Assembly (NCBI GenBank): GCA_014843695.1
Contig: CM026403.1
Location: forward strand, 47,224,539 to 47,288,538
Direction: 5' to 3'
Origin: Archivesica marissinica
Lineage: Eukaryota; Mollusca; Bivalvia; Venerida; Vesicomyidae
Length of the DNA stretch: 64,000 nucleotides
Positions 652 through 64,000 of this stretch are shown in pieces. The notes below the pieces were generated by a model that had not been told where the DNA came from, searched no databases, and worked only from the letters and a program-made list of their open reading frames with translations. The position numbers and the translations under genes were made by a program. Numbering within the stretch: position 1 is the first letter of the stretch; every line of letters starts with the position of its first letter.

Positions 652-762
652 GTGAGTAAAGCACAAAGCCTGGTTGTACAGGCAGATATTATGAAGGAAG
701 AAATGTTGAATGCCGAGTGTTTGGAGTACACACCTAGTAGTCTACCACTACTAATTCACCAG
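652..762 (+). CDS. Host gene exon 1 of window (37 codons)
   Basis: This internal exon is bounded by a good acceptor (T-rich tract ending TTATTTGCAG) and a consensus donor (CAG/GTAAGT). It is 111 nt, phase 0 at both ends, and encodes VSKAQSLVVQADIM through to SSLPLLIHQ. Its end joins in frame to exon 2 at 13701. There is no start codon at its beginning, so earlier exons lie outside the window. The first bases after the acceptor read GTGAGTAA, which looks like a donor, so the same site could be mistaken for a 5' splice site. I see no catalytic motif; the segment is helical and charged. The gene may belong to the CCDC162/C6orf183 (DUF4549) group, judged from remembered similarity of exons 1-3 only. 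Confidence 0.75.
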
Positions 763-920
763 GTAAGTAGGCTATCCCGAAATGTGTGCAAGTCAAGTAT
801 ACATTAACCCATCAATTCATGTGCAACTCTTTTTTGTGTGAATTTATCCAAAATAGTAACATAAATTATGCCTCGGGTATAAGGCAGTTTTCAGTGATCT
901 TTTCTTGTGAAAAGGGTCTG

Positions 921-1486
921 TGAACTCTTGTATATAGAACATCTATTGTATGTTTCAACCACTACCTTGATATATAATCTCTGTGAACTCTTGTATATAG
1001 AACATCTATTGTATGTTTCAACCACTACCTTGATATATAATCTCTGTGAACTCTTGTATATAGAACATCTATTGTATGTTTCAACCACTAACTTGATATA
1101 TAATCTCTGTGAACTCTTGTATATAGAACATCTATTGTATGTTTCAACCACTCCCTTGATATATAATCTCTGTGAATTCTTGTATATAGAACATCTAATG
1201 TATGTTTCAACCACTACCTTGATATATAATCTCTGTGAATTCTTGTATATAGAACATCTAATGTATGTTTCAACCACTCCCTTGATATATAATCTCTGTG
1301 AATTCTTGTATATAGAACATCTAATGTATGTTTCAACCACTCCCTTGATATATAATCTCTGTGAATTCTTGTATATATATAGAACATCTATTGTATGTTT
1401 CAACCACTACCTTGATATATAATCTCTGTGAATTCTTGTATATAGAACATCTATTGTATGTTTCAACCACTACCTTGATATATAAT
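921..1486. repeat. 63-bp minisatellite, about 9 copies
   Basis: The unit contains CTTGTATATAGAACATCTA and a TTTCAACCACT motif. The period is exactly 63 bp apart from one TA insertion near 1375. Because 63 is a multiple of three, frames stay open on both strands, which explains the long apparent proteins here. No resemblance to the adjacent exon was found. Confidence 0.95.
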
Positions 1487-1625
1487 GCTTGTTCAGTAGA
1501 GGGTTCATGCTTGTTCAGTAGAGGGTTCATGCTTGTTCAGTAGAGGGTTCATGCTTGTTCAGTGGAGGGTTCATTCTTGTTCAGTAGAGGGTTCATGCTT
1601 AGTCCTTGGAGGGTTCATGCTTGAT
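1487..1625. repeat. 22-bp minisatellite, left part
   Basis: Units of the form TTCAGTAGAGGGTTCATGCT plus two bases, continuous with the large array at 3079-6624. The two parts are separated by a LINE fragment inserted into the array. Confidence 0.95.
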
Positions 1626-1628
1626 ATA

Positions 1629-2870: not shown

Positions 2871-3078
2871 GTTTTACAATTGACGTTTTATTATCATTTT
2901 TACAGCTTGATAAATGTTGTTGCAATTGACCTTTCGTCATTGCAATTTTAATGCATACAGAATGTTATCTACATAATAGTTTTAGTTGTAGATATCTTGT
3001 ATACAATGTACTTAACCTGGCGCGATATAGCCTGAACTGTGCTGATGCGCCGTTAAACCAAATACTCACTCACTCACT

Positions 3079-6624: not shown

Positions 6625-6844
6625 GAAATATATATTAAATCACATGTAAATCGATTCATAAACACGTAATGACAATGTTGAGTTGGCATGCTTTCAGTGT
6701 GACTGTTTGTTTGAAACGTAAAATTTAACGTCTCTTTGTAGCATTATATAGAACGTATTTATAACATTAAATGCCACTTCGCCATGGCTGCTATATTTGG
6801 CTGATTATTTGAACTGTAATGTTCACATTTAATGTCACTATGCA

Positions 6845-7420
6845 GCATGTTATGGACTAAATGTGTCACATTAAAACATTTTATAGATCATATGTGTCAC
6901 ATTGCAACATTTCATTGACCGTATTTTTCACTTTGCATCATTTTATAGATCATATTTGTCACTTTCCATTATTTTATGGACTACATTTGTCTCTTTGCAG
7001 TATTTATGGAATATGTTTGTCTCTTTGCAGTATTTATGGAATATGTTTGCCACTTTGCAGCATTTATGGAATATGTTTGTCACTTTGCAGCATTTATGGA
7101 ATATGTTTGTCACTTTGCAGTATTTATGGACTATGTTTGTCACATTGCAGCATTTATGGAATATGTTTGTCACTTTGCAGCATTTATGGAATATGTTTGT
7201 CACTTTGCAGCATTTATGGAATATGTTTGTCACTTTGCAGCATTTATGGAATATGTTTGTCACTTTGCCACATTTATGGAATATGTTTGTCACTTTGCAG
7301 CATTTATGGAATATGTTTGTCACATTGCAGCATTTATGGAATATGTTTGTCACTTTGCAGCATTTATGGAATATGTTTGTCACATTGCAGCATTTATGGA
7401 ATATGTTTGTCACTTTGCAG
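6845..7420. repeat. 30-bp minisatellite copied from exon 2 acceptor, left part
   Basis: The homogeneous unit reads (intron side) ATGTTTGTCACTTTGCAG then (exon side) CATTTATGGA. The true exon 2 begins after CACATTGCAG with CATTTTATGGAT. Outer units (6845-6990) are diverged but keep four T residues and GAC/GATC motifs, closer to the real exon start. The array resumes at 13329 after a LINE insertion. Confidence 0.95.
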
Positions 7421-8028
7421 CCCCCCCAGCTGGGCAGGGGTTAGAATATCCCAGCTGTCGCACTACAGAGGGGTACAACCCCCCCCAAATGTGCCTGCCT
7501 GTTTGCCGTGGGCGGAGACCTGTGTCGCCTGATGAGAGGATCCTGGTGGTTGAGTAGAATCAGTGTTGGCAAATAATACCCTGTTTCCACAACACACCAC
7601 TTCGGCCTTAAGTTGGGTTAAACGGGAGGTCAGGAAAGCCCGTCCTTGATCAATCGGCTGGTCATGCCGAGCCCTAGGGCATCGTTAATCTTAAACACAT
7701 ATTTTCAAAATTTATCTTGAAAACAAATATTGATTCTCTAAATATTTATACTCTTTCATTGTCTTCTTTTTGATGCCCTAGAAGGCGGTGGCTCATGGGC
7801 TAATCGGGTGAACGTTTGATGTTTTATTGACTTTTGTAACCTCCCAAGGATAGTCTAAACTTGGTAGGACCTTCTGTGGGAATACACTTGTCCAGTCTAG
7901 TCCTTTCATTCTGAGTATATCATTGATGTATCCCTGTCATGATCTGCGATGGATTTCCCCAGATCATGTCCCCTTGTTGGGCTCTGAGACGGGTGGGGAG
8001 CATTGACGATGAACTATATATTACTATT

Positions 8029-9358
8029 ATGAGTTCCACTCAAAAAAAAGCCAAGCGTGCACTAAGTGAATCTGATGATGATTCTGTTGAACAACAGAGA
8101 GTGAACGTCCCTCGCTTCATTCTCATTGAGGCGGTAGACAGTTCAAAACCTATCACAAAAATTTCCCCTTTCGTCATTGAAAAGCAAATGAAATCTCTCC
8201 TAGGTACACCTAAATCTGTTAAAAGTCTTCGAAATGGAAGTCTTTTGGTTGAAATTACTTCAAAAGCTCAATCTCAGAATTTATTATCAACGAACACCTT
8301 CTTTGGACATTCTGTGAAGGTCAGTCCCCACAAATCTTTGAACTTATCCAAAGGTGTCATCAGGTGCAGGGAATTATCTTCCTGCTCTTTGGATGAGATC
8401 AAAGAAGGTTTGTCAAGTCAAGGGATCATTGACGTGAAGAGAATATCAATAAAACGTAACAACGAAATAAAAACAACAAACACATATATAATTACATGTG
8501 ACACACAAGTCATCCCGTCACGTATCAAAGTCGGCTACCAGATTGTCACCGTCGACATATATGTACCTAACCCTCTTAGATTCTTTAAATGCCAGAAGTA
8601 TGGTCATCATGAGGATAGGTGTCGGAACGAGTCTGTATGCTCCAAGTGTGCTGAGACTGCTCCACAACATCAAGAGAACAACTGCCCCAACACAAATAAA
8701 TGCGCCAAGTGTGGCGCTGATCATATTTCCAATTCTAAAGACTGTGTCTCCTGGAAAAAAGAAAAAGAAATTGTTAAAATCAAATATTCGGAAAACATTT
8801 CATTCCAGGATGCAAGAAAAATTTATGAATCTCGGTACAAATCCGAAAATCAGCCAAGCTATGCAAGTGTTGCTAAAACAGCTTCTGTTGAATGCAAAAC
8901 TTGCAAAAACTTGTTGACCAAACTTTGCCAAATATTTCCAGACAAAAAAAACAGAAATAATGCAGTTATTCCCTGGTTCTGATAGTTCTTCTCATCTTGA
9001 CCAACTTACACATCAAAATACACCACAAACACCTAAACCTACGCTTACAAATCAAAATACACCACAAACACCTAAACCTACAGCAGACAAACAAAAACAA
9101 GCAAAAACAAACATACACAAGAATCCAACAACAAAAAACACTCGAAACAACAATACACAAGAAAAACACATTCAACCAAAAACAACATCAACTTCATCAA
9201 AACCAATACCTACTAAAAAAAATCTACAGCTCAACAAGCATCAACTTCAACAAAAAAGCAATCTGCTGTCACTTCCAGACAAGTCCGAGTCTATGACCTG
9301 GCAAGATGGCGAGGGTGGCTGGAGCAACAACCTCCAGTCGTTGCAGGATGCCACTTAA
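8029..9358 (+). pseudogene. LINE ORF1 (zinc-knuckle RNA-binding protein), frameshifted
   Basis: The start chosen is the ATG at 8029 (MSSTQKKAKRALSESDDDS); an in-frame upstream extension to 7939 looks like UTR. An RRM-like segment spans roughly residues 25-185. Three Cys/His knuckles follow: CQKYGHHEDRC, then CSKCAETAPQHQENNC and CAKCGADHISNSKDC. The first frame stops at 8982. The second frame, entered near an A-rich run at about 8945, continues with a Thr/Gln/Lys-rich tail to 9358, so a one-base slip probably splits the original ORF. The product would bind element RNA in the retrotransposition particle. Confidence 0.85.
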
Positions 9359-9441
9359 TATATTATTAACTTTATATTTTATCTATGAATAATAATTATG
9401 TAAATATCGGTATAGTATTTTTAATAATTAATCTCTCCATA

Positions 9442-12400
9442 ATGGCCAATGGAATTATCCAGTGGAATTGTCGAGGTTTAAAATCTAATTTTGCAGAGAT
9501 TTCTCTTTTAGTGCAAGAACATAAACCTGCTGCGTTATGCCTTCAAGAAACATTTTTGAAACAAAATGATACAATTTCTATAAAACATCACACCATTTTC
9601 AATAAAATATACAGTGAAGGTGATAAAGCCCAGGGTGGGGTATCTATCGTCGTCAATAATAGTGTTCCACATAAGGAATTACTGTTAAATACAAACTTAC
9701 AAGCTGTTGCTGTAAGACTGTCATTACATAGCACTATCACACTGTGTTCACTATATCTTCCCCCAAGTAAACCAATTGAAGAACATAGGCTGAATGATCT
9801 TATAATACAATTACCCACTCCATATATCCTAATAGGTGATTTCAATGCACATAACATCATCTGGGGTTGTAATAATACAAATCAAAGAGGTCTCCAGATA
9901 GAGAATTTCATCACTGATAATTCTCTTTCTTACATGAATGATCCATCTTCCAAAACATATTTACACCCAGGAACAGGATCCTATTCTGCAATAGATCTTA
10001 CACTATGTAGCCCAGTCATACTTCCAGATTTCTCATGGAAAGTCGATGATGATCTCCACGGAAGCGATCACTTCCCCATCCTCATATCTGAAAATCAGCC
10101 AACAGTTTATAGTCAACCCAGAAGATGGAAACTTTCTAAAGCAAATTGGACTAAATTCCAACAACTTTGTGAACAAACAATTTCATATGAAACATTCAAG
10201 GATTGTCGTGATCAAACACAGCTATTCACTACATTACTAATAAAATCAGCAGAACAATCCATACCTCAGACTTCACCTAATCCAAAGAGACCATACAAAC
10301 CCTGGTATGATGACGATTGTAAGAAAGCCATCCAAAATAGGAAATCGGCCATAAGAAAATTCAATTTGAGACCCACCACAGAAAATTTAAACAACATTCG
10401 CATATATAGAGCAAAAGCACGACGTACAATACAAAGCAGCAAACGCAAATGTTGGAAACAATACATCTCAAGACTAAATAACAGAACAACAACTAAGAAA
10501 ATGTGGGACATGATCAGAAAACTTAATGGCAAAGGTACTTCACCTATTAGCCACCTCACTGCAAACAACAAACAAATCACCACACCTCTGGAAATTTCAA
10601 ACATTTGCACAAAAATCATCAGCAAATAATTATTCACAAAAATTTCAGAAATTCAAAAACACTAAAGAAAAGAAAAAACTAAACTTCAATTCAAGGAACA
10701 AAGAACATTACAACAAACTATTTAATCTTAAAGAACTAAAGTCTGCTTTGTCAAAAGCACATGATACATCCCCAGGTCCAGATAAAATCCACTATCAATT
10801 CTTAAAACATCTACCTAGCTCCTCCCTCTTTATATTATTGGACATTTTTAATTCTATATGGCAAACTGGTGAATTTCCTACATCTTGGAGGGAGGCTTTA
10901 GTCATCCCAATACCAAAACCAGATAAGGATAAAAAGGATCCAAACAACTATAGACCCATAGCGTTAACAAGTTGTATATGTAAAACTATGGAAAGAAACA
11001 ACCGGCTTGTATGGTTTCTCGAATCAAATCATTTAATTGTTAATGTCCAGAGTGGCTTTCGTCAGCAGCGAAGCACACTGGATCATCTAGTTCGTTTCGA
11101 AACATTTATAAGAGAGGGCTTTGTCAATAAACAACATGTTGCTTCAGTATTTTTCGACCTTGAGAGTGCTTATGACACACCCTGGAAATATGGCATTTTA
11201 AAAGATCTTCACGACTTTGACCTCAGAGGACGCCTTCCATTATTTATTTCTGCATTTTTAAATGAAAGACATTTTCGTGTTCGTGTTTGTAATACCCTAT
11301 CAGATGCTCGGGAACAGCAGATGGGTGTACCACAGGGTTATATTTTGCCCGTTACATTGTTTAGTATTAAGATAAACAATATTGTTAAATCAATAAATCC
11401 AGGGGTTGAGTGCTCCCTTTATGTAGATGATTTTGTTATTTGCTTCAGGTCTAGTAATATGAACATAATAGAACGCCAACTCCAGCAATGGCTGAATAAA
11501 CTTCAGACTTGGTCGGATGAAAATGGTTTTAAATTTTCTAAATCAAAAACTAAATGTATGCATTTTTGTAATCTACGTGGACTTCATCCAGACCCAGAAA
11601 TTTACCTGGATGGCTCACGTGTAGAAGTAGTCTCAGAATACAAATTTTTAGGTGTTATCTTTGATAAAAACTCTCATTCATTCCTCATATCAATAATTTA
11701 AAAAAGAAATGTCAAAAAGCTCTAAATATTTTAAAGGTTGTGGCACATTCCGATTGGGGAGCTGATAGAAAGGTACTTCTACGGCTCTATCGGTCATTAG
11801 TTCGCTCTAAGCTGGATTATGGTTCGATAATTTACGGATCTGCACGAAAATCGTACCTGAAAATACTTGATCCTATACATAATCACGGTCTACGATTAGT
11901 CCTTGGAGCTTTCAGAACTTCCCCTGTTAAAAGTCTTTATGCTGAAGCAAATGAACCCTCTCTGTATGCTAAGCGACAGAAGCTAGCTCTTCAATACCTA
12001 CTGAAACTCAAGTCAAATCCTCTAAACCCAGCTCACAAAGTGGTCTTTCAACCCCAATTTAAAGTGCAGTTTCAAAGAAAACCGAGAGCTATTGCCCCAC
12101 TAGGTATATGCATGGAACAATGTCTAGATGACCTACATATTGACATGAAATCTATTGCACAGTATAAAATCCCAGATTCTCCTCCTTGGACCCTTAAAAC
12201 TGCCGAGTTTCGCTTTGATCTCACTTCTGATAAAAAGTCTATTACAGACGGGAGCCAGTTTCAAACAAAATATCATGAAATCAGGGAATTTTATTCTGAC
12301 TTCAAAGCCATATACACAGATGGTTCAAAAGCTGGTGACACTGTTGCGTTAGCAGCAATCTTTGGGAATAAAAATCGGAAATGTAGACTTCCAAACAAGT

Positions 12401-13093
12401 CCTCAATTTTCTCTGCCGAACTGAAGGCCATAGATCTCGCTCTAGATCTTGCAGTGGAATCACACTATGTTCAATATATCATTTTCTCTGATTCCTTGTC
12501 TGTTTTACAGGCTTTTGTATTATGAAAAGTTTGAAAATCCTATTGTTTGTACTTTGCTTGAAAGGATTTCTTCCCTTTCAGAAACAAATACATTTGTGTT
12601 CTGCTGGCTTCCGAGCCATATGGGAATAAAAGGTAATGAAATGGCTGACCAGAATGCAAAGCTGGCTTTGTCATTATCAATTTCTAGGATTAAAGTGTGT
12701 TATACCGATTTTAAATCTACAATTCTTACCTTAATTCAATCCTCTTGGCAGGCCCAATGGGATGGTGAAATTTTTAACAAACTTTATTCGGTCAAACCAA
12801 CACTTGGCGAATGGTGCCCAATTTACAGGCCTATTCGTCGAGAAGAAGTCATTTTTGCCCGTCTCAGGATTGGTCATTCTCGAATATCACATTCATGGCT
12901 GTTGTCACGAGATGATGCACCAGAATGTATCCCATGCAATACTCTATACACGGTGGAGCATATCTTAATACACTGTGTTGACCTTCAACCAATCCGGTTG
13001 CAGTACTACAATTTGGACAACATTAAAAAACTCTTCGACTCTATCAGAGTAGAGTCCATCATATCATTTATCAAGGCAATAGGAAATATATAA
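9442..13093 (+). pseudogene. LINE ORF2 (APE endonuclease, RT, RNase H), frameshifted
   Basis: The ORF starts MANGIIQWNCRGLKSNF. APE motifs include CLQETF, LIGDFNAHN and a GSDHFPI end motif. After a frame change near 10600-10630 come the RT blocks: SPGPDKIHYQFL, NYRPIAL, VFFDLESAYDT, GVPQG and the catalytic SLYVDDFVI. A second break lies near 11680, then the thumb region (DYGSIIYG). RNase H follows (IYTDGSKAG, FSAELKAIDLAL, SDSLSVLQ) with a third break and small deletion near 12512, then LPSHMGIKGNEMADQ and a C-terminal EHILIHCVDL. All domains are present but the frame breaks make it non-functional. Confidence 0.92.
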
Positions 13094-13328
13094 TAATGGT
13101 GTGATAAGCAATTGTTACTCCATGCCTTTGTAGTAATCGTCTTCATATATTACCTGTAATTCATCTTAACGTCCTTTAATAACTTTCTTATTGAGTGGGA
13201 TTGTACGTAATACATATACTTATATAGAATTTTATTTCATACACTCGACAATAAACATAACTTTAATGCGCGCTACATGACCTTAGATGTCGATGCGCCG
13301 TAAAACACCATTCATTCATTCATTCATT

Positions 13329-13700
13329 CACTTTGCAGCATTTATGGAATATGTTTGTCACTTTGCAGCATTTATGGAATATGTTTGTCACTTTGCAGCA
13401 TTTATGGAATATGTTTGTCACATTGCAGCATTTATGGAATATGTTTGTCACATTGCAGCATTTATGGAATATGTTTGTCACTTTGCAGCATTTATGGAAT
13501 ATGTTTGTCACTGCAGCATTTATGGAATATGTTTGTCACTTTGCAGCATTTGTGGAATATGTTTGTCACATTGCAGCATTTATGGAATATGTTTGTCACT
13601 TTGCAGCATTTATGGAATATGTTTGTCACTTTGCAGCATTTATGGAATAATTATGTTTGTCACATTGCAGCATTTATGGAATATGTTTGTCACATTGCAG
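13329..13700. repeat. 30-bp minisatellite copied from exon 2 acceptor, right part
   Basis: This part continues directly into exon 2. About 12 units each carry a TTGCAG acceptor followed by CATTTATGGA. The last full unit is in frame with exon 2 (TLQHLWNMFVTLQ followed by HFMDRI), so use of the decoy acceptor one unit upstream would add ten residues without a stop. Confidence 0.95.
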
Positions 13701-13825
13701 CATTTTATGGATCGTATTCATCACATCATACAGTCCAAGTACCTGCATTTACTGAGATGGAAGAGGTTCTGCCAGGGTACAGCCACCATGGAAGCATTAC
13801 ACCCCCTCTATCAGAAGAGAATGAG
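13701..13825 (+). CDS. Host gene exon 2 of window (41 codons + 2 nt)
   Basis: The acceptor is CACATTGCAG and the donor GAG/GTGAGA. The exon is 125 nt, enters in phase 0 and leaves with two bases. It encodes HFMDRIHHIIQSKY, LHLLRWKRFCQGT and MEALHPLYQKRM. The aromatic and basic KYLHLLRWKRFC stretch is the most characteristic segment of the gene and the main reason for the tentative CCDC162/C6orf183-like call. The alternative frame across this exon does not fit the phase of exon 3. The upstream minisatellite is made from this exon's 5' boundary. Confidence 0.85.
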
Positions 13826-18968: not shown

Positions 18969-19152
18969 TGACATCCTGTCGGAGTATAATGACTGTGTTG
19001 AGAGGGCACAGCGGTTGTCCTTGGCACGGGAGTCGTACCTGTGCAAGGCTGACCATGTCTTGGCAGTGATAGAGCTAGAGGATTTACTCATCTATCTACG
19101 CTGGCTTGTCTCTCACTTACATTCTACAAAGAGGTTTAACCAATATCTGAGG
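18969..19152 (+). CDS. Host gene exon 3 of window (61 codons + 1 nt)
   Basis: The acceptor is TTTACTCTTCAG and the donor AGG/GTAGGT. The exon is 184 nt: its first base completes the Ser codon begun in exon 2 and it leaves in phase 0. It encodes DILSEYNDCVERAQRLSLAR, then ESYLCKADHVLAVIELEDLL and IYLRWLVSHLHSTKRFNQYL. The alternation of hydrophobic and charged residues indicates helices, possibly coiled coil. This is one of the most gene-like segments of the window. It lies about 640 bp downstream of the 21-bp array, separated from it by a LINE scrap and a SINE fragment. Confidence 0.88.
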
Positions 19153-20649: not shown

Positions 20650-20718
20650 GTAATACAATGGATGCCCATTCTATTCAAGAATGAAATAGCGCCACCAGTA
20701 AAAGAAGACAATGATCAG
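20650..20718 (+). CDS. Host gene exon 4 of window (23 codons)
   Basis: The acceptor is TTTTACTTACAG and the donor CAG/GTAGAT. The exon is 69 nt, phase 0 at both ends, encoding VIQWMPILFKNEIAPP and VKEDNDQ. Together with exon 3 this makes a helix followed by a hydrophobic WMPILF turn and an acidic tail. The donor is weaker than the others. Its phase matches both exon 3 and exon 5. Confidence 0.8.
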
Positions 20719-26116: not shown

Positions 26117-26330
26117 GAGGAGAACACAAGTGTTTCCAAGATGGCTTCCCGGTATCTTGATGATGCTTCAGGCTCCTACCAGCGACCCAAATCTGGTACA
26201 TCTAGACCTGGTTCAGCGGTGTCCCCAAGAGCCCAGACTCCACTTCCTCAACCACCTGCCATCAACCCAACTCTGCTGTCAACCACACCACTGCCATCGT
26301 CCGCTTTGGCATATGCTGCCGCTGCTGCAG
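26117..26330 (+). CDS. Host gene exon 5 of window, Ser/Pro/Ala-rich linker (71 codons + 1 nt)
   Basis: The acceptor is TATATCTTACAG and the donor GCAG/GTAGGT. The exon is 214 nt, enters in phase 0 and leaves with one base. It encodes EENTSVSKMASRYLDDASGS, YQRPKSGTSRPGSAVSPRAQ, TPLPQPPAINPTLLSTTPLP and SSALAYAAAAA. The frame is fixed by exon 6, because another open frame through this exon meets TAG there. The composition predicts a disordered, possibly phosphorylated linker. The 60-bp minisatellite downstream is a degenerate copy of this exon's last 71 bases including the donor. Confidence 0.85.
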
Positions 26331-29022: not shown

Positions 29023-29032
29023 CGAAAGGGGA

Positions 29033-32224: not shown

Positions 32225-32337
32225 GTGGTGGTATAGCTCAGGATGAGAAGAGTCTGGGACTACCGTTGAATGTAGTAGACTTCCAGTCACTGAAACCACA
32301 TCTAGATTTCCTGCTTAATGTGTATGGAATAAACTTT
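32225..32337 (+). CDS. Host gene exon 6 of window (37 codons + 2 nt)
   Basis: The acceptor is TATATGTTGCAG and the donor TTT/GTAAGT. The exon is 113 nt: the first two bases complete the Gly begun in exon 5 and it leaves in phase 0. It encodes GGIAQDEKSLGLPLNVVDFQ and SLKPHLDFLLNVYGINF. The sequence is hydrophobic-helical with no known motif. This exon fixes the frame of exon 5. Confidence 0.85.
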
Positions 32338-34560: not shown

Positions 34561-34724
34561 TAAAATGTTGAATCAGATATAAAGTGATACATCAGTTCAT
34601 AAAATTATGGATTACCATAATCATTTGTATGTAGGTTGCACAGGAGAATAAGACACAGTTCAAAAACAGAGAAATTTCATGGAAAAAAATTGTGACTTAT
34701 TTTCAAAAATCAAACCACAGACGG

Positions 34725-38344: not shown

Positions 38345-38486
38345 CAATACAATAAGTTTATTGCATAAAACAGACACATGTTTATAGCAATTAAACAGTA
38401 GAAACAGGCAGTGACATGGAATTTTACAAAAGAGCATAATTATAGGTTATTAGTATTCAAATACATGTATATGATATAAAAAGGTG

Positions 38487-41400
38487 TTAGGTTCGTTGTT
38501 TATTTGCAAAATATATAAATTTGGAAAGATCGATAGTGATTTTTTGTGATTTGCATGACAAGAGATTAATAAATTTCTGTATAGTCGGCCAGGTATGGTA
38601 ATATCTTTTAATAAATTTCGATCTTAAAGTTGCATAATGTGGGCAGATTAGTATGAAATGATATTCATTTTCCAAAATTCTCGAATTACAATAATTACAT
38701 AATCTTTCGTTTCGTGGCAGGTGTAGGTAACGACCACGCTCAATAGCTAAATCATGCGATGATGTTTTAAATCGTGTAAGGGCAATTCTGTATTTGTTTT
38801 CTTTAATAAAATCAAGGTAAGTTTCAAAGATAAATTCATTTTTAAACAAACTGTATGTCTCTAGACGTGCAGAGTTATTGATAGCAGTATACCAGCGTTG
38901 ATAATATATGTCTAATATGCGTGATTTTATAGTATTGTAATTAATAAGCATTCTTGACTGGTTTTGCCACAAATAGGACAGTCCGCATGTATCGATACTA
39001 TTTTTTAACTGATAAGCCCAGTTCATTTTGTTGTGATAATTTTTGTTTTCAACATCAGTTTTCAACAGTTGGTAAGTTTTATAAAGTAATGAATCTTCTG
39101 GTAAAGTCAATAATTTTAAGCAATATTTGACCATTAGTAGTTGTCTGCGTATCGACATGGGAAGACAACCAAGTTCTCCATATAGTGCATTTAGGTTTGT
39201 TGAGCGCCTTACGCATAATATGTTTCTGCAAAATTTTGAAAGTATTAATTCAACATCGGGTGCATCATGGTAGCCCCATAATTCTGCTGAATAGTTTAAA
39301 ATTGGTGCGACAAGAGAATCAAACAAGCTTAACTTTCTCGATGATGGGAAGTCTACTTGATTAAAAGCAATAAATAATTGATGTAAAGAAAAAGAGGCGT
39401 GCTTAGCTACAAGTTTTTGTGTTCGATTCCAATTACCGTTCTTGTATAGATGAACACCTAAATATTTAAACGATTCTACAATATCAATACGTGAATTATA
39501 TATGTAAAAATCATGTCGAGAATGTCGACCATTTTCAAAAATCATAATTTTTGTTTTATTAGTATTAAGGCGTAAGCCCCATGTATTACAGTAAGTCTCA
39601 ATATCGTTCAACATAGATTGTAATGCTTCAGGATCTTGCGCAAACACAATAGCATCGTCAGCAAATAATAGTAAGAATATTTGTAGGTCACCAATGTTCA
39701 TTATTCCATTCAGATCTGCATTAATATTATTTAATATATCATTCAAAAAAAATAAACACAAAATGCTACTGGACGGGTCTCCTTGCTTTACGCCAATATT
39801 CGATGTGATACAATCAGACGTGTTTGACCCATAGCGAATATACGATCGTACTACTGTATACATAGATTTTAGAGCAGTTATAAATCTAGTGCTAACATTT
39901 GAATTAAGCAGTTTCCCCCATAAGTAAACCCTATCAATTCTATCAAACATCATTTGCCAGTCCAAGTAGGCTACATAGAGTTTTTCTTGGCAGCAAGAGT
40001 TTTACATATAAGGGCATGCAAAATAAAAATACAGTCACTAGTGGATTTATTCTTCTGAAAACCAAATTGATTATCAATAAGTGTGTCATGTTTATCAGTC
40101 CATTTTATTAATCTATTGACCAATAGTTTTGAATATATTTTTGAAATTATATTATTAAGTGTGATTCCTCGAAAGTTTTTGGCTTCACGATTACCACCCT
40201 TGAATATCGGTATAATGATACCTTCTCCCCAGCTTTGTGGGAAAACCCCAGAGCTAAATATAGTATTGTATAGTTTAGTCAGGTAAGGCGCGATTATATC
40301 GAACGAATACTTAAAAACTTCGGCAATTAATTGATCTGTTCCCGGGCTTTTCGAGTTATTTTGCGCGAATACAGCATTTCTTACCTCCGACTCAGTAAAC
40401 TCAGTATCTAGGTCATTATCATAAATAAGAGTGTCCGTGTTTTCAAAATTATCTTGATCATGTTCTGGTTGTGAGCCGTACAGGTTAGTAAAATGAGTAA
40501 ACATATCTTCAATTGAAACATTATCTATATTTGAACCTTTTGTTTTATATTGAGCTTTTACATTTTTCCAAAATGCTTTTGGATTTGATTTAGCTAAGTT
40601 ATTTATACGTTCGCTTTCCTTACGATTAAACTGCCGTTTGTGCAAACGCTTTAAATTAACATAATCACGCCTTTTACTTAGAAATATTAATTTACTTTCT
40701 TGTGTTTTGTTTCTTAAAAATGCATTTCTTGCTATATTAAATTGCTTTCTAGCAGCAATACAATCATTATTAAACCACCTCTTTCTATTTTTACTTATAT
40801 TATTGCTCGCCAGATTATGAACTGTTTGCGAACTTTTCTGAATACACTAAAAGCTTTATCCTGCATGTATTGTGTGAACTGCTGTACTGATTCATTTATT
40901 GTATTGTTATTTAAATCTGATGACAGTCGCTGAAGTAGGTCATTACTGTCCAATAATTGTGTATGGAATGTATCGGTCAGCGTATCGTCCCACTCTAAGT
41001 ATTCCCCATTGGTTGTATTATTATCACGTGATTCGCATTCCTTACTGTGTTTACGTTGTATACAAATATTCAATGCGCAATGTACACAAAAGTTATTAAT
41101 GTAAATAAAGTCATTCTTATTCAATAAACAATAATCAACAACACTTGAACCATTATTATTAATGAATGTAGGCTCGCCAGTTTGATCATTACATAGACGA
41201 CCGTTACATATAAGTAAGTCAGTAGATTGACAAAGTTGTATAAGACGTTTACCATGTGCGTCTAACACATGATCTGTGTTTACTCTCTGACTGTAAACAT
41301 TAGATTGTACATCAATATTGTTGTCTAAAAACCTGTCAAAAACGATATAATCTGGTTAATTCGAAGTTCTACAATTTAGATCACCGATTAAGAGGACCTT

Positions 41401-41847
41401 ACCTTGAACATGATATTTTTCTATATCAGTTTCAATTTGTTCAAATACATCAAAATCATTGTTAAGGTTTCTGAGTACATTTGATTGTTGTGGTGGTATA
41501 TAAATACCGCATAAATAAACATCAGTTTCAAAATGAAATAGGCTTTTACAAAGCTTTAACCACATACTGCCACTTTGGTGTGTTTCCACTAGTGTTATCG
41601 TCTCTTGCAAATACGATTTACAATATATAGTGATGCCGCCACTGAAACGTCCTTTCTTAGTATGGGGCGATTTATTACCAAATAGGTGATAGGCAAAATA
41701 TCCATGAATGTCTAAATTATAATGAGAATTTCGTGACAGCCATGTTTCAGTCAGTATTATCATATCATGATTATAAATAATGTCAAGAAAATCTGGATCC
41801 GATAATTTACGTATTAGTCCATTTATATTCCACGAAATAATGTTCAA
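38487..41847 (-). pseudogene. LINE ORF2 (APE endonuclease and RT), broken
   Basis: It starts MNIISWNINGLIRKL. APE motifs: ILTETWLS, GGITIYC, LLIGDLNCRTSN. A TAA stop at about 41356 interrupts the frame, which continues with PDYIVFDRF and SSVVDYCL. Frameshifts lie near 40795 and 39966. RT motifs: SPGTDQLIAEVF, NFRGITL, AYLDWQMMFD, GVKQGDPSS and the catalytic LLFADDAIVF. The C terminus carries CNYCNSRILENEYHF and ILICPH, a Cys/His finger usual in this position. Compared with the element at 7421 it lacks RNase H, so it is a different lineage. Confidence 0.92.
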
Positions 41848-41865
41848 CTGCTCTTCATGACTTCC

Positions 41866-43035
41866 CTAGTGCGCCGAGGATACCGGCCTCATGTACTGCT
41901 GCCCATTGATGTAAAGTTTGTCTGCAACGAGCTTAACTTTATGTCCTTTGCGCTTTTCGGTTTGCATGACTGGGTACAGATCTCGACGGGCTTCTCTCCA
42001 TTCCTTCGGAAGCTGGATTCCCACACCATGGTTGGTTTTCTTCAAGTCGTCTTTGACTGTGTAGGATGTGGTTCGAACCGTCTCGCGTTCAGAGTAACTG
42101 TGAAATTTAACAACTATTGGGCGGGGTTTTTTCGAATACTCCGGATTGCCCATTCTGTGTGCACGGTCAAACGCCATGCTGTCACTATCTACCTTTAAAT
42201 AGTTTTTGATGAAATCTTTCACAAGGGCTTCACTGTTTTCGGGTTCCGTGGTAACAGAATCTCCGTGCTGTGGTCTGTGAGTTTCAGGAATGCCATAGAA
42301 TATTAGATTCTCTCTCATATTACGATATTCACCATCTAGAACTCGGTCTGTTGTGGATTCCTGTTGTGTTTCCAGTGTTCTTATTTGTTTTTGAAGGGTT
42401 GCACACGAGTCTTGGATACCTTTAACATTGGCTCTGACTGACTTCGTTTCAGTCGATTGTTGGTCATATTGATTACTTATATAGGCGCTAGCATTTTTGA
42501 CATCAATAACCCGCTTGTCAATGGCACTTACTTTTATTTCTAGATCATTGAGTTTTGAGCTTATAGAGTTCACGGTTTTTTCCACATGTTCGATCCTTGC
42601 CACTGTACATTTAATGCTCTGTATATCTTCCATCATGCTCACAGCCCACGGAGGAGGTTCGACTCCGGGCGTGACAACTGGTACATAGGGTAGGGTATAC
42701 TGTCTTTGAGGCGTAGTAAACTGACCAGGGGTAGACCCAGGGGTAGACCCAGGGTATGCTTGTGGAGTATAGTTCATGTTTACTAGATACGGAGAGTCTG
42801 TTGGTGCGTAACTACTCGGAGATGGATTTTTAAGCTTCAAACGTTTACTCACTTCATCAGTTCCATGTTGCGCTGTCGTGTGTACATGTTGATCATATGT
42901 ATCCAAAGTTCGTGTAATGTGTTCACGGTCCTGAGCACGAGAATTTTCACTATTGTCCGCACACAATGGGGAAATTTGTTTTCGTTTATTTTTCTTCCCA
43001 GAATTGTTATTCTGATGTTTTCCTTTCGGTGGCAT
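41866..43035 (-). CDS. LINE ORF1 (coiled-coil/RRM type), intact 389 aa
   Basis: The frame starts with MPPKGKHQNNNSGKKNKRKQ and stops normally 18 bp before ORF2. Residues 1-125 are basic and Pro/Thr-rich with a repeated GSTPG. A predicted coiled coil follows (about 130-225, ending ETQQESTTD). The C-terminal part has NLIFYGIPE, FDRAHRMG and RPIVVKF, as in L1-type ORF1 RRM domains. The likely role is as a trimeric RNA chaperone in the element's ribonucleoprotein. An intact ORF1 beside a decayed ORF2 suggests fairly recent insertion. Confidence 0.88.
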   Translation of the reverse strand: MPPKGKHQNNNSGKKNKRKQISPLCADNSENSRAQDREHITRTLDTYDQHVHTTAQHGTDEVSKRLKLKNPSPSSYAPTDSPYLVNMNYTPQAYPGSTPGSTPGQFTTPQRQYTLPYVPVVTPGVEPPPWAVSMMEDIQSIKCTVARIEHVEKTVNSISSKLNDLEIKVSAIDKRVIDVKNASAYISNQYDQQSTETKSVRANVKGIQDSCATLQKQIRTLETQQESTTDRVLDGEYRNMRENLIFYGIPETHRPQHGDSVTTEPENSEALVKDFIKNYLKVDSDSMAFDRAHRMGNPEYSKKPRPIVVKFHSYSERETVRTTSYTVKDDLKKTNHGVGIQLPKEWREARRDLYPVMQTEKRKGHKVKLVADKLYINGQQYMRPVSSAH

Positions 43036-43160
43036 GAGGAAACAACACTTTAACTCTATTACACCAACAATTTACGAAAATAAGTCCTTATTTTTTAATT
43101 TAATTCCAAATAATTGTCGGAGTTTAAATTCCATGTCACGCCATGAAGGGAGATAACTCA

Positions 43161-43834
43161 TGTAAACAGAATCTATATATTACCTGATCTTGTAAAACAG
43201 AATCTATATATTACATAATCTTGTGAACATAATCTATATATTACCAAACAAACTTTGTAAACAAAATCTATATATTACCTAACTTTGTGAACAGAATCTA
43301 TAAATTACCTAACTTTGTGAATAGAATCTATTTATTACATAATCTTGTGAACATAATCTATATATTAACTAATCTTGTGAATATAATCTATATATTACAT
43401 AATCTTGTGAACAGAATTTATATATTACATAATCTTGTGAACATAATTTATATATTACATAATCTTGTGAATAGAATTTATTTATTACATAATCTTGTGA
43501 ACATAATTTATATATTACATAATCCTGTGAATAGAATTGATATATTACATAATCTTGTGAACATAATTTATATATTACATAATCCTGTGAATAGAATTTA
43601 TATATTACATAATCTTGTAAACATAATCTATATATTACATAATCTTGTAAACATAATCTATATATTACATAATCTTGTAAACATAATCTATATATTACAT
43701 AATCTTGTGAATAGAATTTATATATTACCAAAGTTTGTGAACAGAATCTATATATTACCAAATTTTGTGAACAGAATATATAAATTACCTAACTTTGTGA
43801 ACATAACCTATATATTACCTAACTTTGTGAATAG
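43161..43834. repeat. 30-bp minisatellite abutting exon 7, right part
   Basis: Units read TTGTGAACAG then AATCTATATATTACATAATC and run without a break into the exon 7 acceptor TTGTGAATAG followed by AATCTAGAAGGG. The acceptor plus the first six exon bases are thus part of the repeat. Units close to the exon carry CCTAAC, a good branch-point match. Confidence 0.95.
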
Positions 43835-43960
43835 AATCTAGAAGGGATCAGGAACACAGCTGATGAAATGGAAATGTATGCTACCATCAACAGGAAGTTT
43901 AAGCAGATCTTCCAGCGGCAAGAGCACATGAGAACCTTCAAGACCTATGATAGGATTGAG
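43835..43960 (+). CDS. Host gene exon 7 of window (42 codons)
   Basis: The acceptor TTTGTGAATAG was chosen because it gives phase 0 to match exon 6; the later AG after TCT would break the frame. The donor is GAG/GTATGA. The exon is 126 nt, phase 0 at both ends, and encodes NLEGIRNTADEMEMYATINR, then KFKQIFQRQEHMRTFKTYDR and IE. It is a charged helix, likely coiled coil. The pyrimidine tract is poor and the acceptor is embedded in the last unit of a minisatellite, so use of other units as acceptors is possible. Confidence 0.82.
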
Positions 43961-48337: not shown

Positions 48338-48339
48338 TT

Positions 48340-48767: not shown

Positions 48768-48794
48768 TCCAGCAAAAAGGCGATGGTGCCGGAT
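48768..48794 (+). CDS. Host gene exon 8 of window, micro-exon (9 codons)
   Basis: A 27-nt exon between TTCCCTTTACAG and GAT/GTAAGC, phase 0 at both ends, encoding SSKKAMVPD. Both splice sites are good and the length keeps the frame between exons 7 and 9, so it may be optional. It is short enough that chance cannot be excluded. Confidence 0.6.
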
Positions 48795-54486: not shown

Positions 54487-54681
54487 TTGGGGCAAGAGAA
54501 CTGGGGCATAGACTCACCCATCCATACCCTGAAGCAGGAATCCAACTGGCTCCCCTACGTTAAATTGAAGCCAGAACACAATGCCATGCAGGAGAAAGTG
54601 TGGACCCAGCTGAGACAATTGAACAATACTGATGAGATATTGCGTATGCAGGCACACTTCATACATGTGTCTGATGCAGAG
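54487..54681 (+). CDS. Host gene exon 9 of window (65 codons)
   Basis: The acceptor is TATTTTAACAG and the donor GCAGAG/GTAAGC. The exon is 195 nt, phase 0 at both ends, encoding LGQENWGIDSPIHTLKQESN, WLPYVKLKPEHNAMQEKVWT, QLRQLNNTDEILRMQAHFIH and VSDAE. It has helical segments rich in Gln and Leu. The last 20 bases of the exon and first 12 of the intron form the unit of a 14-copy tandem array beginning inside the exon. Reading past the donor gives VSK and a stop, so only use of the first donor preserves the protein. Confidence 0.88.
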
Positions 54682-55109
54682 GTAAGCAAATAATACATGT
54701 GTCTGATGCAGAGGTAAGCAAATAATACATGTGTCTGATGCAGAGGTAAGCAAATAATACATGTGTCTGATGCAGAGGTAAGCAAATAATACATGTGTCT
54801 GATGCAGAGGTAAGCAAATAATACATGTGTCTGATGCAGAGGTAAGCAAATAATACATGTGTCTGATGCAGAGGTAAGCAAATAATACATGTGTCTGATG
54901 CAGAGGTAAGCAAATAATACATGTGTCTGATGCAGAGGTAAGCAAATAATACATGTGTCTGATGCAGAGGTAAGCAAATAATACATGTGTCTGATGCAGA
55001 GGTAAGCAAATAATACATGTGTCTGATGCAGAGGTAAGCAAATAATACATGTGTCTGATGCAGAGGTAAGCAAATAATACATGTGTCTGATGCAGAGGTA
55101 AGCAAATAA
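54662..55109. repeat. 32-bp array of exon 9 donor, 14 copies
   Basis: The unit is TACATGTGTCTGATGCAGAG (exon) plus GTAAGCAAATAA (intron). The span is 448 bp, exactly 14 x 32, and the copies appear identical by eye. The first copy is the real exon end. Every further copy carries the same donor GCAGAG/GTAAGC. Confidence 0.98.
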
Positions 55110-56827: not shown

Positions 56828-56979
56828 CATGTACAGGAGATTCTACAGGAGCATGCTAGTGCGGTGCGGAACCCAGTCACTGGAAACGCTGCACGGGTCA
56901 CCACTAATCATGATGCTAATAATGTGAATACACTACAAGTATGGAGAAAGATTTACTGTAACAGTGATCTCTATACTGA
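56828..56979 (+). CDS. Host gene exon 10 of window (50 codons + 2 nt)
   Basis: The acceptor is CTATCATTTCAG and the donor CTGA/GTAAGT. The exon is 152 nt, enters in phase 0 and leaves with two bases. It encodes HVQEILQEHASAVRNPVTGN, AARVTTNHDANNVNTLQVWR and KIYCNSDLYT. An earlier GTATGG at CTACAA was considered as donor, but the GTAAGT site is stronger and gives the phase needed by exon 11 (a Glu codon split GA/A). Confidence 0.85.
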
Positions 56980-59232: not shown

Positions 59233-59482
59233 TTAACCCTTTCAACCCCACGTAACTGACATGTACTGGTGCGTGATATTTTCAGACCAATAAATTAATA
59301 AGAAAATTACCTTTGGACCAGTTCATTTATCAAAATGGGTAATTTTATCTAAAAATAGTAATAATTATTACTGGCAAAAAAGTGCAGATCCTGATGAGAC
59401 GGCTCGTTACGAGCCGGCTCATCTGGATCTACACTTTTCATAAGCCTATTTAGAGGCCTGTGGGGTTGAATGAAAGGGTTAA
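59233..59482. mobile_element. TTAA-flanked MITE, copy 5
   Basis: TTAA ends, CCCTTTCAACCCCA left end, and a right end TGGGGTTGAATGAAAGGG that carries a 4-bp insertion (TGAA) relative to other copies. Central GAGACGGCTCGTTACGAGCC palindrome. Confidence 0.87.
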
Positions 59483-60345: not shown

Positions 60346-60538
60346 CTATTCCCTCAAGTTGTTTTTCCCCTACATATCTGTTATGATGTAAGTCTAAATC
60401 CTTGATCCTGTTTATATCACACTTGCAAAGTTACCACAATTACAACAAGACTCTAATAATGTGACGTTGACTGATTTCAAAGTTCCTACCAATGCCAATA
60501 GCATAAATGTTGAAAAATTGTTGATGAATGGTAATATC

Positions 60539-60977
60539 TAGGGATGGCAATGAATGGTGATTGTGATATTCGAATATTCGGATGATCTTCCAAACGAATA
60601 TTCGAATATTTGAATATTCGCAAATTTCTCCAACTTTCCATTTCCACTACTGTTAGTACCTGTAAAACAAATGCTTCTCAGTTTGTGTCCCGTCAAATAT
60701 ACTGCATTAATCAATTAGTGGCCCCTGTAAGGTGTGAACAACATGTCATCACCCTCCTTTGTTATTTGGAGCCAAATCGCGATGACATTTCGCACCTTCG
60801 GGCATGCATTGGGTCATTCTTTGTTTTCGAAACTTAATTGATTGAAATTTAAACAAACATATATATCCTTTTAAGTTATGATTTAACTGCAATTGATTAA
60901 AATTTGATTTGAATTTTTTTTTAATATTCGAATATGGTTTTAATATTCGAATATTCGAACATTCGTTGCCATCCCTA
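60539..60977. mobile_element. hAT-like MITE (439 bp) with 8-bp target duplication
   Basis: The ends TAGGGATGGCAATGAATG and CATTCGTTGCCATCCCTA are near-perfect inverted repeats. GTAATATC flanks both sides (60531-60538 and 60978-60985). The sub-terminal regions carry clusters of GAATATTCG. An 8-bp duplication with a YAGGG(A/C)TG terminus fits hAT elements. No transposase. Confidence 0.88.
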
Positions 60978-61014
60978 GTAATATCCAAATTCATCCATCA
61001 GGATTGTATTTCAG

Positions 61015-61157
61015 AGAGGATGATGATGATTCTATTAAAGTTGCCAACTTTGATGAGCGAGATATCGAGAATGTGAATCTAGCGAATAACAAGAGGGCTG
61101 GCAGTGCCAGGAAGAGGAGAGATAGCTATGATTATATCAACACTGTACAGATGCTGG
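61015..61157 (+). CDS. Host gene exon 11 of window (47 codons plus split codons)
   Basis: The acceptor is ATTGTATTTCAG and the donor CTGG/GTAAAT. The exon is 143 nt: the first base completes Glu from exon 10, and one base is left over. It encodes EDDDDSIKVANFDERDIENV, NLANNKRAGSARKRRDSYDY and INTVQML. An acidic run is followed by a basic RKRR stretch that could be a nuclear-type signal or a binding patch. Without a downstream exon the gene continues beyond the window. Its last 13 bases plus 19 intron bases form the unit of the array that fills the rest of the window. Confidence 0.87.
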
Positions 61158-64000
61158 GTAAATATCCTTCCTTGTTGTACAGATGCTGGGTAAATATCCT
61201 TCCTTGTTGTACAGATGCTGGGTAAATATCCTTCCGTGTTGTACAGATGCTGGGTAAATATCCTTCCTTGTTGTACAGATGCTGGGTAAATATCCTTCCT
61301 TGTTGTACAGATGCTGGGTAAATATCCTTCCTTGTTGTACAGATGCTGGGTACATATCCTTCCTTGTTGTACAAATGCTGGGTACATATCCTTCCGTGTT
61401 GTACAGATGCTGGGTACATATCCTTCCGTGTTGTACAGATGCTGGGTAAATATCCTTCCTTGTTGTACAAATGCTGGGTACATATCCTTCCGTGTTGTAC
61501 AGATGCTGGGTACATATCCTTCCGTGTTGTACAGATGCTGGGTACTATCCTTCGTGTTGTACAGATGCTGGGTACATATCCTTCCTGTTGTACAGATGCT
61601 GGACATATCCTTCCGTGTTGTACAGATGCTGGTACATATCCTTCCATGTTGTACAGATGCTGGGTACATATCCTCCGTGTTGTACAATGCTGGGTAAATA
61701 TCCTTCCATGTTGTACAGATGCTGGGTACATATCCTTCCGTGTTGTACAGATGCTGGGTACATATCCTTCCGTGTTGTACAAATGCTGGGTACATATCCT
61801 TCCGTGTTGTACAGATGCTGGGTACATATCCTTCCATGTTGTACAGATGCTGGGTACATATCCTTCCGTTTGTACACTGGGTAATATCCTTCCGTGTTGT
61901 ACAGATGCTGGTACATATCCTTCCGTGTTGTACAGATGCTGGGTACATATCCTTCCGTGTTGTACAGATGCTGGGTACATATCCTTCCGTGTTGTACAGA
62001 TGCTGGGTACATATCCTTCTGTGTTGTACAGATGCTGGGTACATATCCTTCCGTGTTGTACAGATGCTGGGTACATATCCTTCCGTGTTGTACAGATGCT
62101 GGGTACATATCCTTCCGTGTTGTACAGATGCTGGGTACATATCCTTCCGTGTTGTACAGATGCTGGGTACATATCCTTCCGTGTTGTACAGATGCTGGGT
62201 ACATATCCTTCTGTGTTGTACAGATGCTGGGTACATATCCTTCCGTGTTGTACAGATGCTGGGTACATATCCTTCCGTGTTGTACAGATGCTGGGTACAT
62301 CCTTCCGTGTTGTACAGATGCTGGGTACATATCCTTCCGTGTTGTACAGATGCTGGTACATATCCTTCGTGTTGTACAGATGCTGGGTACATATCTTCCT
62401 GTTGTACAATGCTGGGTACATATCCTTCCTGTTGTACAGATGCTGGGTACATATCCTTCCGTGTTGTACAGATGCTGGGTACATATCCTTCCGTGTTGTA
62501 CAGATGCTGGGTACATATCCTTCCGTGTTGTACAGATGCTGGGTACATATCCTTCCTTGTTGTACAGATGCTGGGTACATATCCTTCCTTGTTGTACAGA
62601 TGCTGGGTACATATCCTTCCGTGTTGTACAGATGCTGGGTACATATCCTTCCGTGTTGTACAGATGCTGGGTACATATCCTTCCGTGTTGTACAGATGCT
62701 GGGTACATATCCTTCCGTGTTGTACAGATGCTGGGTACATATCCTTCCGTGTTGTACAGATGCTGGGTACATATCCTTCCGTGTTGTACAGATGCTGGGT
62801 ACATATCCTTCCGTGTTGTACAGATGCTGGGTACATATCCTTCCGTGTTGTACAGATGCTGGGTACATATCCTTCCTTGTTGTACAGATGCTGGGTACAT
62901 ATCCTTCCTTGTTGTACAGATGCTGGGTACATATCCTTCCTTGTTGTACAGATGCTGGGTACATATCCTTCCGTGTTGTACAGATGCTGGGTAAATATCC
63001 TTCCTTGTACATATGCTGGGTAAATATCCTTCCTTGTACAGATGCTGGGTAAATATCCTTCCTTGTACATATGCTGGGTAAATATCCTTCCTTGTACATA
63101 TGCTGGGTAAATATCCTTCCTTGTACAGATGCTGGGTAAATATCCTTCCTTGTACATATGCTGGGTAAATATCCTTCTTGTACATATGCTGGGTAAATAT
63201 CCTTCCTTGTACATATGCTGGGTAAATATCCTTCCTTGTACATATGCTGGGTAAATATCCTTCCTTGTACAGATGCTGGGTACATATCCTTCCTTGTTGT
63301 ACATATGCTGGGTAAATATCCTTCTGTGTACAGATGCTGGGTAAATATCCTTCCTTGTACAGATGCTGGGTAAATATCCTTCCTTGTACAGATGCTGGGT
63401 AAATATCCTTCCTTGTACAGATGCTGGGTAAATATCCTTCCTTGTTGTACTGATACTGGGTAAATATCCATCCTTGTGGTACAGATGCTGGGTCAATATC
63501 CTTCCTTGTACAGATGCTGGGTAAATATCCTTCCTTGTACAGATGCTGGATAAATATCCTTCCTTGTACAGATGCTGGGTAAATATCCTTCCTTGTTGTA
63601 CTGATACTGGGTCAATATCCTGTATTGTACATATGCTGGGTTAATGGTCTTCATTGTTGTACATATGCTGGGTAAATATCCTTCCTTGTGGTACAGATGC
63701 TGGGTAAATAACCTTCATTGTACATATGCTGGGTAAATGTCCTTCCTTGTTGTACATATGCTGGGTAAATATCCTTCCTTGTACAGATGCTGGGTAAATA
63801 TCCTTCCTTGTACATATGCTTGGTAAATATCCTTCCTTGTACAGATGCTTGGTAAATGTCCTTCCTTGTTGTACAGATGCTGGGTAAATATCCTTCCTTG
63901 TACATACATATGCTGGGTAAATATCCGTCCTTGTACAGATGCTTGGTAAATGTCCTTCCTTGTTGTACAGATGCTGGGTAAATATCCTTCCTTGTACATG
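61145..64000. repeat. 32/29-bp array of exon 11 donor, about 90 copies, truncated by window end
   Basis: The unit is GTACAGATGCTGG (exon side) plus GTAAATATCCTTCCTTGTT (intron side). From about 63000 most units lack three bases (29 bp). Central units carry GTACAT in place of GTAAAT. A patch with many one-base deletions lies at about 61540-61700, 61870-61910 and 62290-62420. The array starts inside exon 11, so the real donor is its first unit. Confidence 0.97.

Follow-up and report, generated by a model that had tools for sequence, protein, structure and literature searches.

Can an intron grow by multiplication of the splice junction at its own end, and are such junctions preferred places for minisatellites to arise? 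The questions are raised by a stretch of 64,000 nt from Archivesica marissinica (GCA_014843695.1, CM026403.1, positions 47,224,539-47,288,538, forward strand), hereafter the window. A sequence-only reading had described here one gene of 11 exons, in which at least five minisatellites with mutually unrelated units derive from the nearest exon-intron junction, and had considered chance placement unlikely.

Exon map of the CCDC162-like gene

The window lies within a CCDC162-like gene, as indicated by a match to PF15082 (E = 3e-24) and by 51% identity to the "coiled-coil domain-containing protein 162-like" of Elysia; in the aligned parts only, identity is 82% to Mercenaria and 74% to Mya. A PDB search gave nothing useful. 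By tblastn of the Elysia, Nucella, Mytilus and Mya proteins ten exons were placed in the window (Table 1), and ten of the 11 exons first read are thus backed by orthologs. The remaining one, a 27-bp exon picked by eye at 48768..48794 on the plus strand and taken as exon 8, was rejected: a counterpart was seen in none of the eight homologs in which this stretch could be located (12 inspected), and Mya has four unrelated residues at its place. For exon 7, our own initial start at 43842 was dropped, since the orthologs place it at 43835 (gtgaatag/AATCTAGAAGGG, the slash marking the junction). With this start exons 6 and 7 are again in phase, and the junction falls within the repeat.

Table 1 Exons, junction arrays and insertions in the window (positions counted from its first letter; exon numbers as first read)
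Feature	Position	Strand	Basis and remarks
Exon 1	652..762	+	tblastn to Elysia/Mya orthologs; splice sites
Exon 2 acceptor array, distal block	6833..7421	+	TRF; unit common to both blocks
LINE-like retrotransposon splitting exon 2 array	7422..13327	+	ORFs by eye
Exon 2 acceptor array, 30-bp unit, 12.7 copies	13328..13711	+	TRF
Exon 2	13701..13825	+	Splice sites; ortholog tblastn
Exon 3	18969..19152	+	Splice sites; ortholog tblastn
Exon 4	20650..20718	+	Splice sites; ortholog tblastn
Exon 5	26117..26330	+	Splice sites; ortholog tblastn
Exon 5 3'-end array, probably with donor, 60-bp unit, 44.6 copies	26348..29023	+	TRF
Exon 6	32225..32337	+	Splice sites; ortholog tblastn
Exon 7 array, distal block	35747..38348	+	TRF; unit matches
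LINE-like retrotransposon splitting exon 7 array	38349..43152	-	Minus-strand ORFs, by eye
Exon 7 acceptor array, 30-bp unit, 22.7 copies	43153..43840	+	TRF
Exon 7	43835..43960	+	NLEGIR aligned with DLEKID (Mytilus) and NLDGIR (Mya)
Exon 9	54487..54681	+	Splice sites; ortholog tblastn
Exon 9 donor array, 32-bp unit, 14 identical copies	54661..55109	+	TRF; all GTAAGC
Exon 10	56828..56979	+	Splice sites; ortholog tblastn
Exon 11	61015..61157	+	Ortholog tblastn
Exon 11 donor array, 32-bp unit	61144..63995	+	TRF; runs past the window to 66490

Junction arrays in the window

All five junction arrays claimed for the window are real (the acceptors of exons 2 and 7, the 3' end of exon 5 and the donors of exons 9 and 11), and their units come from the nearest junction, as had been proposed. 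The unit at exon 2 reads TCACTTTGCAG/CATTTATGG... across the acceptor; the one at exon 7 also spans the acceptor and has only 6 exon bases. The element that splits the exon 2 array carries ORFs that, by eye, look gag-like, endonuclease/RT-like and RNase H-like. At exon 5 the assignment is by homology: the 60-bp unit is identical to exon bases 26260-26302 at 36 of 43 positions, in an alignment that stops short of the donor. This match was equalled by none of 2000 shuffles and by one of 3000 random non-array pieces, a piece which itself came from the exon 5 region.

Junction arrays across the gene and in myosins

Among the 96 mapped junctions of CCDC162, 11 lie inside a repeat unit, six of them outside the window. 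Ten are spanned by an array edge, namely the donors of exons x-1, 9, 11, 46 and 47 and the acceptors of exons 2, 7, 16, 21 and 25; the eleventh is exon 5, by homology of its unit. With exon 5 counted, these are six donors and five acceptors, so both intron ends are affected. The exon 44 acceptor used is 3 bp off, which leaves the counts unaffected, and that of exon 38 was excluded.

Myosin-head exons elsewhere in the genome served as a second sample. Of 74 matches listed, 62 were analysed and 12 dropped: nine on C5 presumed, from equal or similar scores and profile ranges, to be near-copies of others that were retrieved, one on C763 taken as a haplotig, and two low-ranked ones on C5. These 62 exons gave 123 junctions, with only the donor counted for L083, which comes without upstream flank; 10 of the 123 are spanned. 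The L048 acceptor was not counted as spanned, its refined splice site being 12 bp clear of the array. In these two gene samples of the bivalve, about one junction in ten bears such an array.

The units measure 30-146 bp in CCDC162 and 31-110 bp in the myosins. Arrays reach 8-64 bp across the splice site into the exon at exons 2, 9, 11, 16, 21, 46 and 47 and at L034, L039, L048, L049, L052, L073, L074, L076 and L080; the units at exon 7, exon 25 and L067 contain only 4-6 exon bases. When 17 units were compared with each other, including that at the L048 acceptor and leaving out that of exon x-1, there was no non-self match, which bears out the earlier view that the units are unrelated and that such arrays originated repeatedly. 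In addition, 10 of the 11 CCDC162 units were searched in 304 kb and each matched its own array alone, which at exons 2 and 7 consists of two blocks.

Splice-site copies and the choice among them

In many arrays, nearly every copy has a splice site that equals the real one in quality. Splice dinucleotides, counted in copies of at least 72% identity, are near-universal in five arrays: AG is kept in 25/26 copies at exon 2 (both blocks), 19/19 at exon 16 and 24/25 at exon 21, and GT in 14/14 copies at exon 9 and in 164 of the 166 scored at exon 11. In two others they are mostly lost, with AG remaining in 13 of the 54 copies scored at exon 7 (both blocks) and GT in one of 20 matched copies at exon 47. 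At exon 5, where inspection of the 44 copies showed a GTAGGT donor core in 41, the decoy donors look weaker. The lost or weak decoys at exons 47, 7 and 5 could mean that some decoys are harmful.

The main ortholog alignments stop at the exon-proximal copy. Splicing at the next copy instead would cause a frame shift in six of 11 cases and introduce stops in three more; exon 46 is counted under the latter because its two donors are 105 bp apart, although TRF gives a period of 107. Since the neighbouring copy breaks the frame or adds stops in 9/11, the exon-proximal copy is presumably the one chosen, most simply via exon definition. This fits the earlier suggestion that a duplicated junction may be tolerated: the exon-proximal copy still encodes an ortholog-like protein.

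Relation to known systems

The sequence-only reading knew of no named class for such repeats. A class has, however, been described in amphioxus as "mirages", in the genes for Adh3, the globins BflGb6 and BflGb9 and TnC, with similar repeats in PGBD5 (PMC3087553, PMC3902484). According to these reports, mirages occur at both intron boundaries, have units of 10-160 bp, show length or somatic instability, and keep AG or GT in many, not all, copies; RT-PCR suggests that splicing is regular despite them (PMC3087553, PMC3902484). The clam arrays likewise have a boundary-spanning unit, are found at both boundaries, fall in this range of unit lengths and retain AG or GT in part. They are an abundant mollusc instance of mirages. 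They differ in copy number, with up to 166 scored copies compared to 6 and 3 in the reported BflGb6 haplotypes, and in their frequency in two gene samples, from which it seems that mirages, earlier described in few amphioxus genes, are no lancelet oddity.

In the potato RdRp gene, a tandem duplication over an intron-exon boundary supplies ready-made splice signals (PMC4974935). The boundary-crossing duplication is common to both systems, but the duplicate described in potato creates a new intron, whereas the clam arrays lengthen existing ones; in the gene structure of this assembly, no exon split by an array was seen. Human segmental-duplication genes are reported to contain variable internal tandem repeats with units of ~30 bp on average and 4 copies (PMC2812944). 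These, too, are minisatellites that lie in part at exon-intron boundaries and alter gene structure; unlike in the clam, the cases described involve alternative transcripts or novel introns and small copy numbers. A literature search on minisatellites, introns and bivalve genomes found no report, from which we do not claim that none exists.

The arrays offer natural tests of splice choice: there are exons with 14 or 164 intact donors of their own and others with 19 to 25 of their own acceptors, the real one counted, and the competing copies differ little save in position. They also pose the problem of how one correct copy is selected in splicing when dozens of sites are identical. In addition, junction arrays are a concrete route of intron growth, possibly of intron birth.

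Origin of the arrays

We consider it likely that these junction arrays are mirage-type minisatellites that grew from junction duplications, with the exon-proximal copy kept as the real exon end. The founding step would be a short tandem duplication across an exon-intron junction, which slippage or unequal exchange may then expand to tens to more than 100 copies. The array lies on the intron side, and as the exon-proximal copy stays the real end, the protein would be unchanged while the intron lengthens. Exon definition across the short exon would pick the nearest site.

Alternatively, the arrays may have reached the junctions by pure chance, from uniform seeds in an array-saturated genome; in this gene, there is an array start per ~570 bp of unique intron. 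This is a possibility to be taken seriously, if not the one we favour. The earlier argument against it, that junctions cover only about 1% of the window, ignored array density. In place of the shuffled positions proposed there, we used the adjoining 41-310 bp of intron as background for the array edges that lie at most 40 bp from a junction, counting arrays of a TRF score of at least 70 and a period of at least 10 in CCDC162 and the myosins. In the window, there are 5 edges in 1.38 kb near junctions and 2 in 3.63 kb (rate ratio 6.6, P = 0.02). At the other 76 CCDC162 junctions, where the near zone of 5.69 kb holds 11 edges and the adjoining 12.9 kb holds 26, there is no excess (ratio 0.96, P = 0.61), as expected from chance. 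The myosins do show one: the 8.86 kb near junctions hold 22 edges and the adjoining 20.3 kb hold 12 (ratio 4.2, P = 3.8e-5), and in array-bearing stretches only the ratio is 3.0 (P = 0.0013). All data outside the window combined give a ratio of 1.98 (P = 0.003). A hazard estimate that allows for 50 bp on the exon side again agrees with chance (6.4 of 73 spanning arrays expected, 8 observed, P = 0.31), while a collapsed-unit null argues against it (2.8 of 73 expected, 8 observed, P = 0.007, discovery window included). The statement that chance is unlikely thus holds for the window and the myosins and fails for the rest of CCDC162. Because tandem arrays occupy 52% of the CCDC162 region (25-52% in sampled stretches), attraction of arrays by junctions is no more than a possibility; junction arrays are probably somewhat more frequent than random seeding would give. 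Growth of introns through junction arrays, as first proposed, is real, but such arrays are only part of this array content.

The myosin excess and the reported amphioxus repeats at both kinds of boundary would also be expected if junctions were hot spots, at which some factor linked to the sequence of the splice site or to splicing during transcription favours the first duplication. We regard this as doubtful: the CCDC162 junctions outside the window lack the excess, the mechanism is hypothetical, and selection alone could yield a moderate excess. It is tempting to speculate further that in this clade minisatellites arise preferentially at junctions by a process linked to splicing or sequence, that this is a main route of intron growth and that the hundreds of full-strength decoys which thereby fill the introns are ignored only through exon definition, a reading we hold to be improbable as a whole. 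Under it, some decoys of the AG/GT type (slash at the junction) could serve stepwise or new introns.

Another explanation, which we find still less convincing, is that intron arrays absorb their flanks until selection on the exon halts them, so that edges accumulate at the junction. The myosins indeed have 12 edges at -3 to +20 bp (5.3 per kb versus 0.46 per kb at 60-310 bp), but CCDC162 shows no such pile-up (3 in 1.95 kb, 1.5 per kb), and arrays reaching 8-64 bp into the exon are left unexplained. Finally, multiplication of junction sequences by long-read assembly is very improbable, for although the identical exon 9 copies are what assembler stutter might give, artefact copies are expected to be identical, whereas those of the other ten CCDC162 junction arrays are 86-99% alike (TRF) and two arrays are split by insertions that by eye are LINE-like.

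Minisatellites at splice junctions

Arrays with a repeat unit that contains an exon-intron boundary (a spanned junction) are common in the two gene samples studied here. The window (G000:C18:47224539-47288538, in an assembly of 1.54 Gb) carries on its + strand part of a CCDC162-like gene (PF15082, DUF4549; E = 3e-24), whose nearest proteins are from Mercenaria (82% within the aligned part) and Mya (74%); on these identities the source is probably a heterodont bivalve. Adding 100 kb of upstream and 140 kb of downstream sequence and locating further exons by ortholog proteins gave 96 splice junctions in total; TRF arrays (score of at least 50, period up to 500) make up 153,690 of 298,000 non-N bases (51.6%). 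The sequence-only reading had claimed five junction-derived arrays in the window, at exons 2, 5, 7, 9 and 11, and all five were confirmed. A 27-bp exon at 48768-48794, taken to be exon 8 of that reading, was rejected: the stretch could be located in eight of 12 homologs inspected, and none of the eight has a counterpart.

The exon 5 unit shares 36 of 43 positions with exon bases 26260-26302, a score equalled by none of 2000 shuffles and by one of 3000 random non-array pieces, and this single piece comes from around exon 5. For exon 7, the acceptor reads gtgaatag/AATCTAGAAGGG, which preserves phase with exon 6; at the protein level this gene has NLEGIR there (NLDGIR in Mya, DLEKID in Mytilus). 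With the acceptor placed by orthologs, the array unit gtgaacag/AATCTAtatatta spans it and includes six exon bases. Outside the window, 6 of 76 junctions are spanned, and the acceptor of exon 35 has one extra copy 385 bp upstream (79 bp, 77 identical). Of the 11 CCDC162 units, 10 were searched for within 304 kb, and each matches its own array only, and a comparison of 17 units from both gene samples gave no non-self match.

Arrays and other elements of the CCDC162-like region (positions in window coordinates)
Feature	Position	Unit (bp)	Copies	Remark
Exon 2 acceptor array	13328-13711			reaches 11 bp into exon
Exon 2 array, distal block	6833-7421			same unit; split off by LINE-like element
Exon 9 donor array		32	14	copies identical
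Exon 11 donor array	continues to 66490		166 scored	
Exon x-1 (outside window) donor array		146	2	
Exon 16 acceptor array		56	19	reaches 43 bp into exon
Exon 21 acceptor array		43	25	
Exon 25 acceptor array		63		reaches 5 bp into exon
Exon 46 donor array		107 (TRF period)		reaches 59 bp into exon; copy LHEHNVKLDPFQRVDYLQS
Exon 47 donor array	199488-200636	55	21	outside window
LINE-like elements	7422-13327, 38349-43152, ~1624-3077			
Dispersed repeat	~19320-19560, 35180-35420, 44257-44500, 48097-48340, 59234-59480	~250		
tRNA-like Rfam matches	21216-21288 (-), 44676-44748 (+)			

The second sample came from a search of the same genome for the myosin head (PF00063), which gave 74 exon matches; 62 exons were analysed with flanks of mostly 250-400 bp, and splice sites were set from reading frame and consensus score. 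An array spans 10 of the 123 myosin junctions by more than 3 bp (donors of exons L034, L039, L048, L052, L073 and L080; acceptors of L049, L067 (only 4 bp), L074 and L076), and 12 more have an array edge at -3 to +20 bp. The units visibly contain exon end and splice site, as in L039 (TGCATTGTGATATCAG/GTAAAACTATAC) and L049 (ATTGTTATTTCAG/GAGTCAATAG). Around 57 myosin exons, arrays occupy 24.7% of the flanking intron sequence.

Test for an excess over chance

In an edge test adapted from the sequence-only reading, array edges up to 40 bp from a junction were compared with those 41-310 bp into the intron; from each junction only the first array encountered was counted. The excess claimed for the window was borne out (5 edges in 1.38 kb versus 2 in 3.63 kb, ratio 6.6, P = 0.02); it did not extend to the rest of CCDC162 (11 in 5.69 kb versus 26 in 12.9 kb, ratio 0.96, P = 0.61), and the whole gene gave 16 versus 28 edges (ratio 1.34, P = 0.22). 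Two alternative nulls on 73 CCDC162 junctions conflict: the eight seen compare with 6.4 expected under the first (P = 0.31) and 2.8 under the second (P = 0.007).

The excess is found again in the myosins (22 in 8.86 kb versus 12 in 20.3 kb, ratio 4.2, P = 3.8e-5), where the P values are optimistic, because the sample represents a single gene family, several of whose paralogs cluster side by side. With only array-bearing stretches kept (29 of 58), so that array-poor genes cannot inflate the contrast, the ratio was 3.0 (P = 0.0013). Of the 34 edges at the first 57 exons, 22 lie within the junction zone, and a conditional test on this zone gave P < 0.004 at a background of up to 5 arrays/kb and 0.07 at 8/kb. 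Myosins and the rest of CCDC162 combined gave a ratio of 1.98 (P = 0.003). An excess of arrays at junctions above random seeding is likely, uneven across genes and not settled.

Decoy splice sites

Splice dinucleotides were scored in array copies at least 72% identical. They are intact in nearly all such decoys at exons 2 (25/26), 9 (14/14), 11 (164/166), 16 (19/19) and 21 (24/25); at exon 7, AG is kept in just 13 of 54 copies. The exon 47 array has GT in a single copy out of 20 matched, which is presumably the exon's own donor, and AT or otherwise in the others, as if one mutated copy had been amplified. Use of the neighbouring copy would be disruptive in 9 of 11 cases, with a frameshift in exons x-1, 9, 11, 16, 21 and 47 and stops gained in exons 7, 25 and 46; in exons 7 and 47 the nearest copy also lacks the splice dinucleotide. 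In exon 2, the frame would stay open.

The main ortholog alignments stop at the exon-proximal copy. Under exon definition, pairing of the nearest acceptor and donor across a short exon would select the exon-proximal copy at both ends.

Known structures of this kind are the mirages of amphioxus, described as minisatellite-like duplications of exon-intron boundaries (PMC3087553, PMC3902484), for which RT-PCR suggests regular splicing (PMC3087553). Four of the six defining features of mirages were examined here and all four were found. The arrays described here add to the amphioxus cases a mollusc, an abundance of about one in ten junctions across both gene samples, and copy numbers of up to 166. 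Related ideas are intron gain through tandem duplication (PMC4974935) and human repeats located at exon-intron boundaries (PMC2812944).

Other elements

All three LINE-like elements seen in the window sit within minisatellite arrays and divide them; at the first in the table (7422-13327), the array sequence tcactttgcag seems to recur on either side as a target-site duplication. By eye, a dispersed repeat is present in at least five copies; its ends are complementary (ccctttcaac...gttgaaaggg type), a further inverted repeat lies inside it around GACGGCTCGT.ACGAGCCGGCTC, and it resembles a short inverted-repeat element. The tRNA-like match on the + strand is part of a longer tRNA-derived short repeat, with another copy, also by eye, near 34720. 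Among the myosins, L077 contains two differing versions of one exon segment (profile 122-152), 240 bp apart, which resemble mutually exclusive exons.
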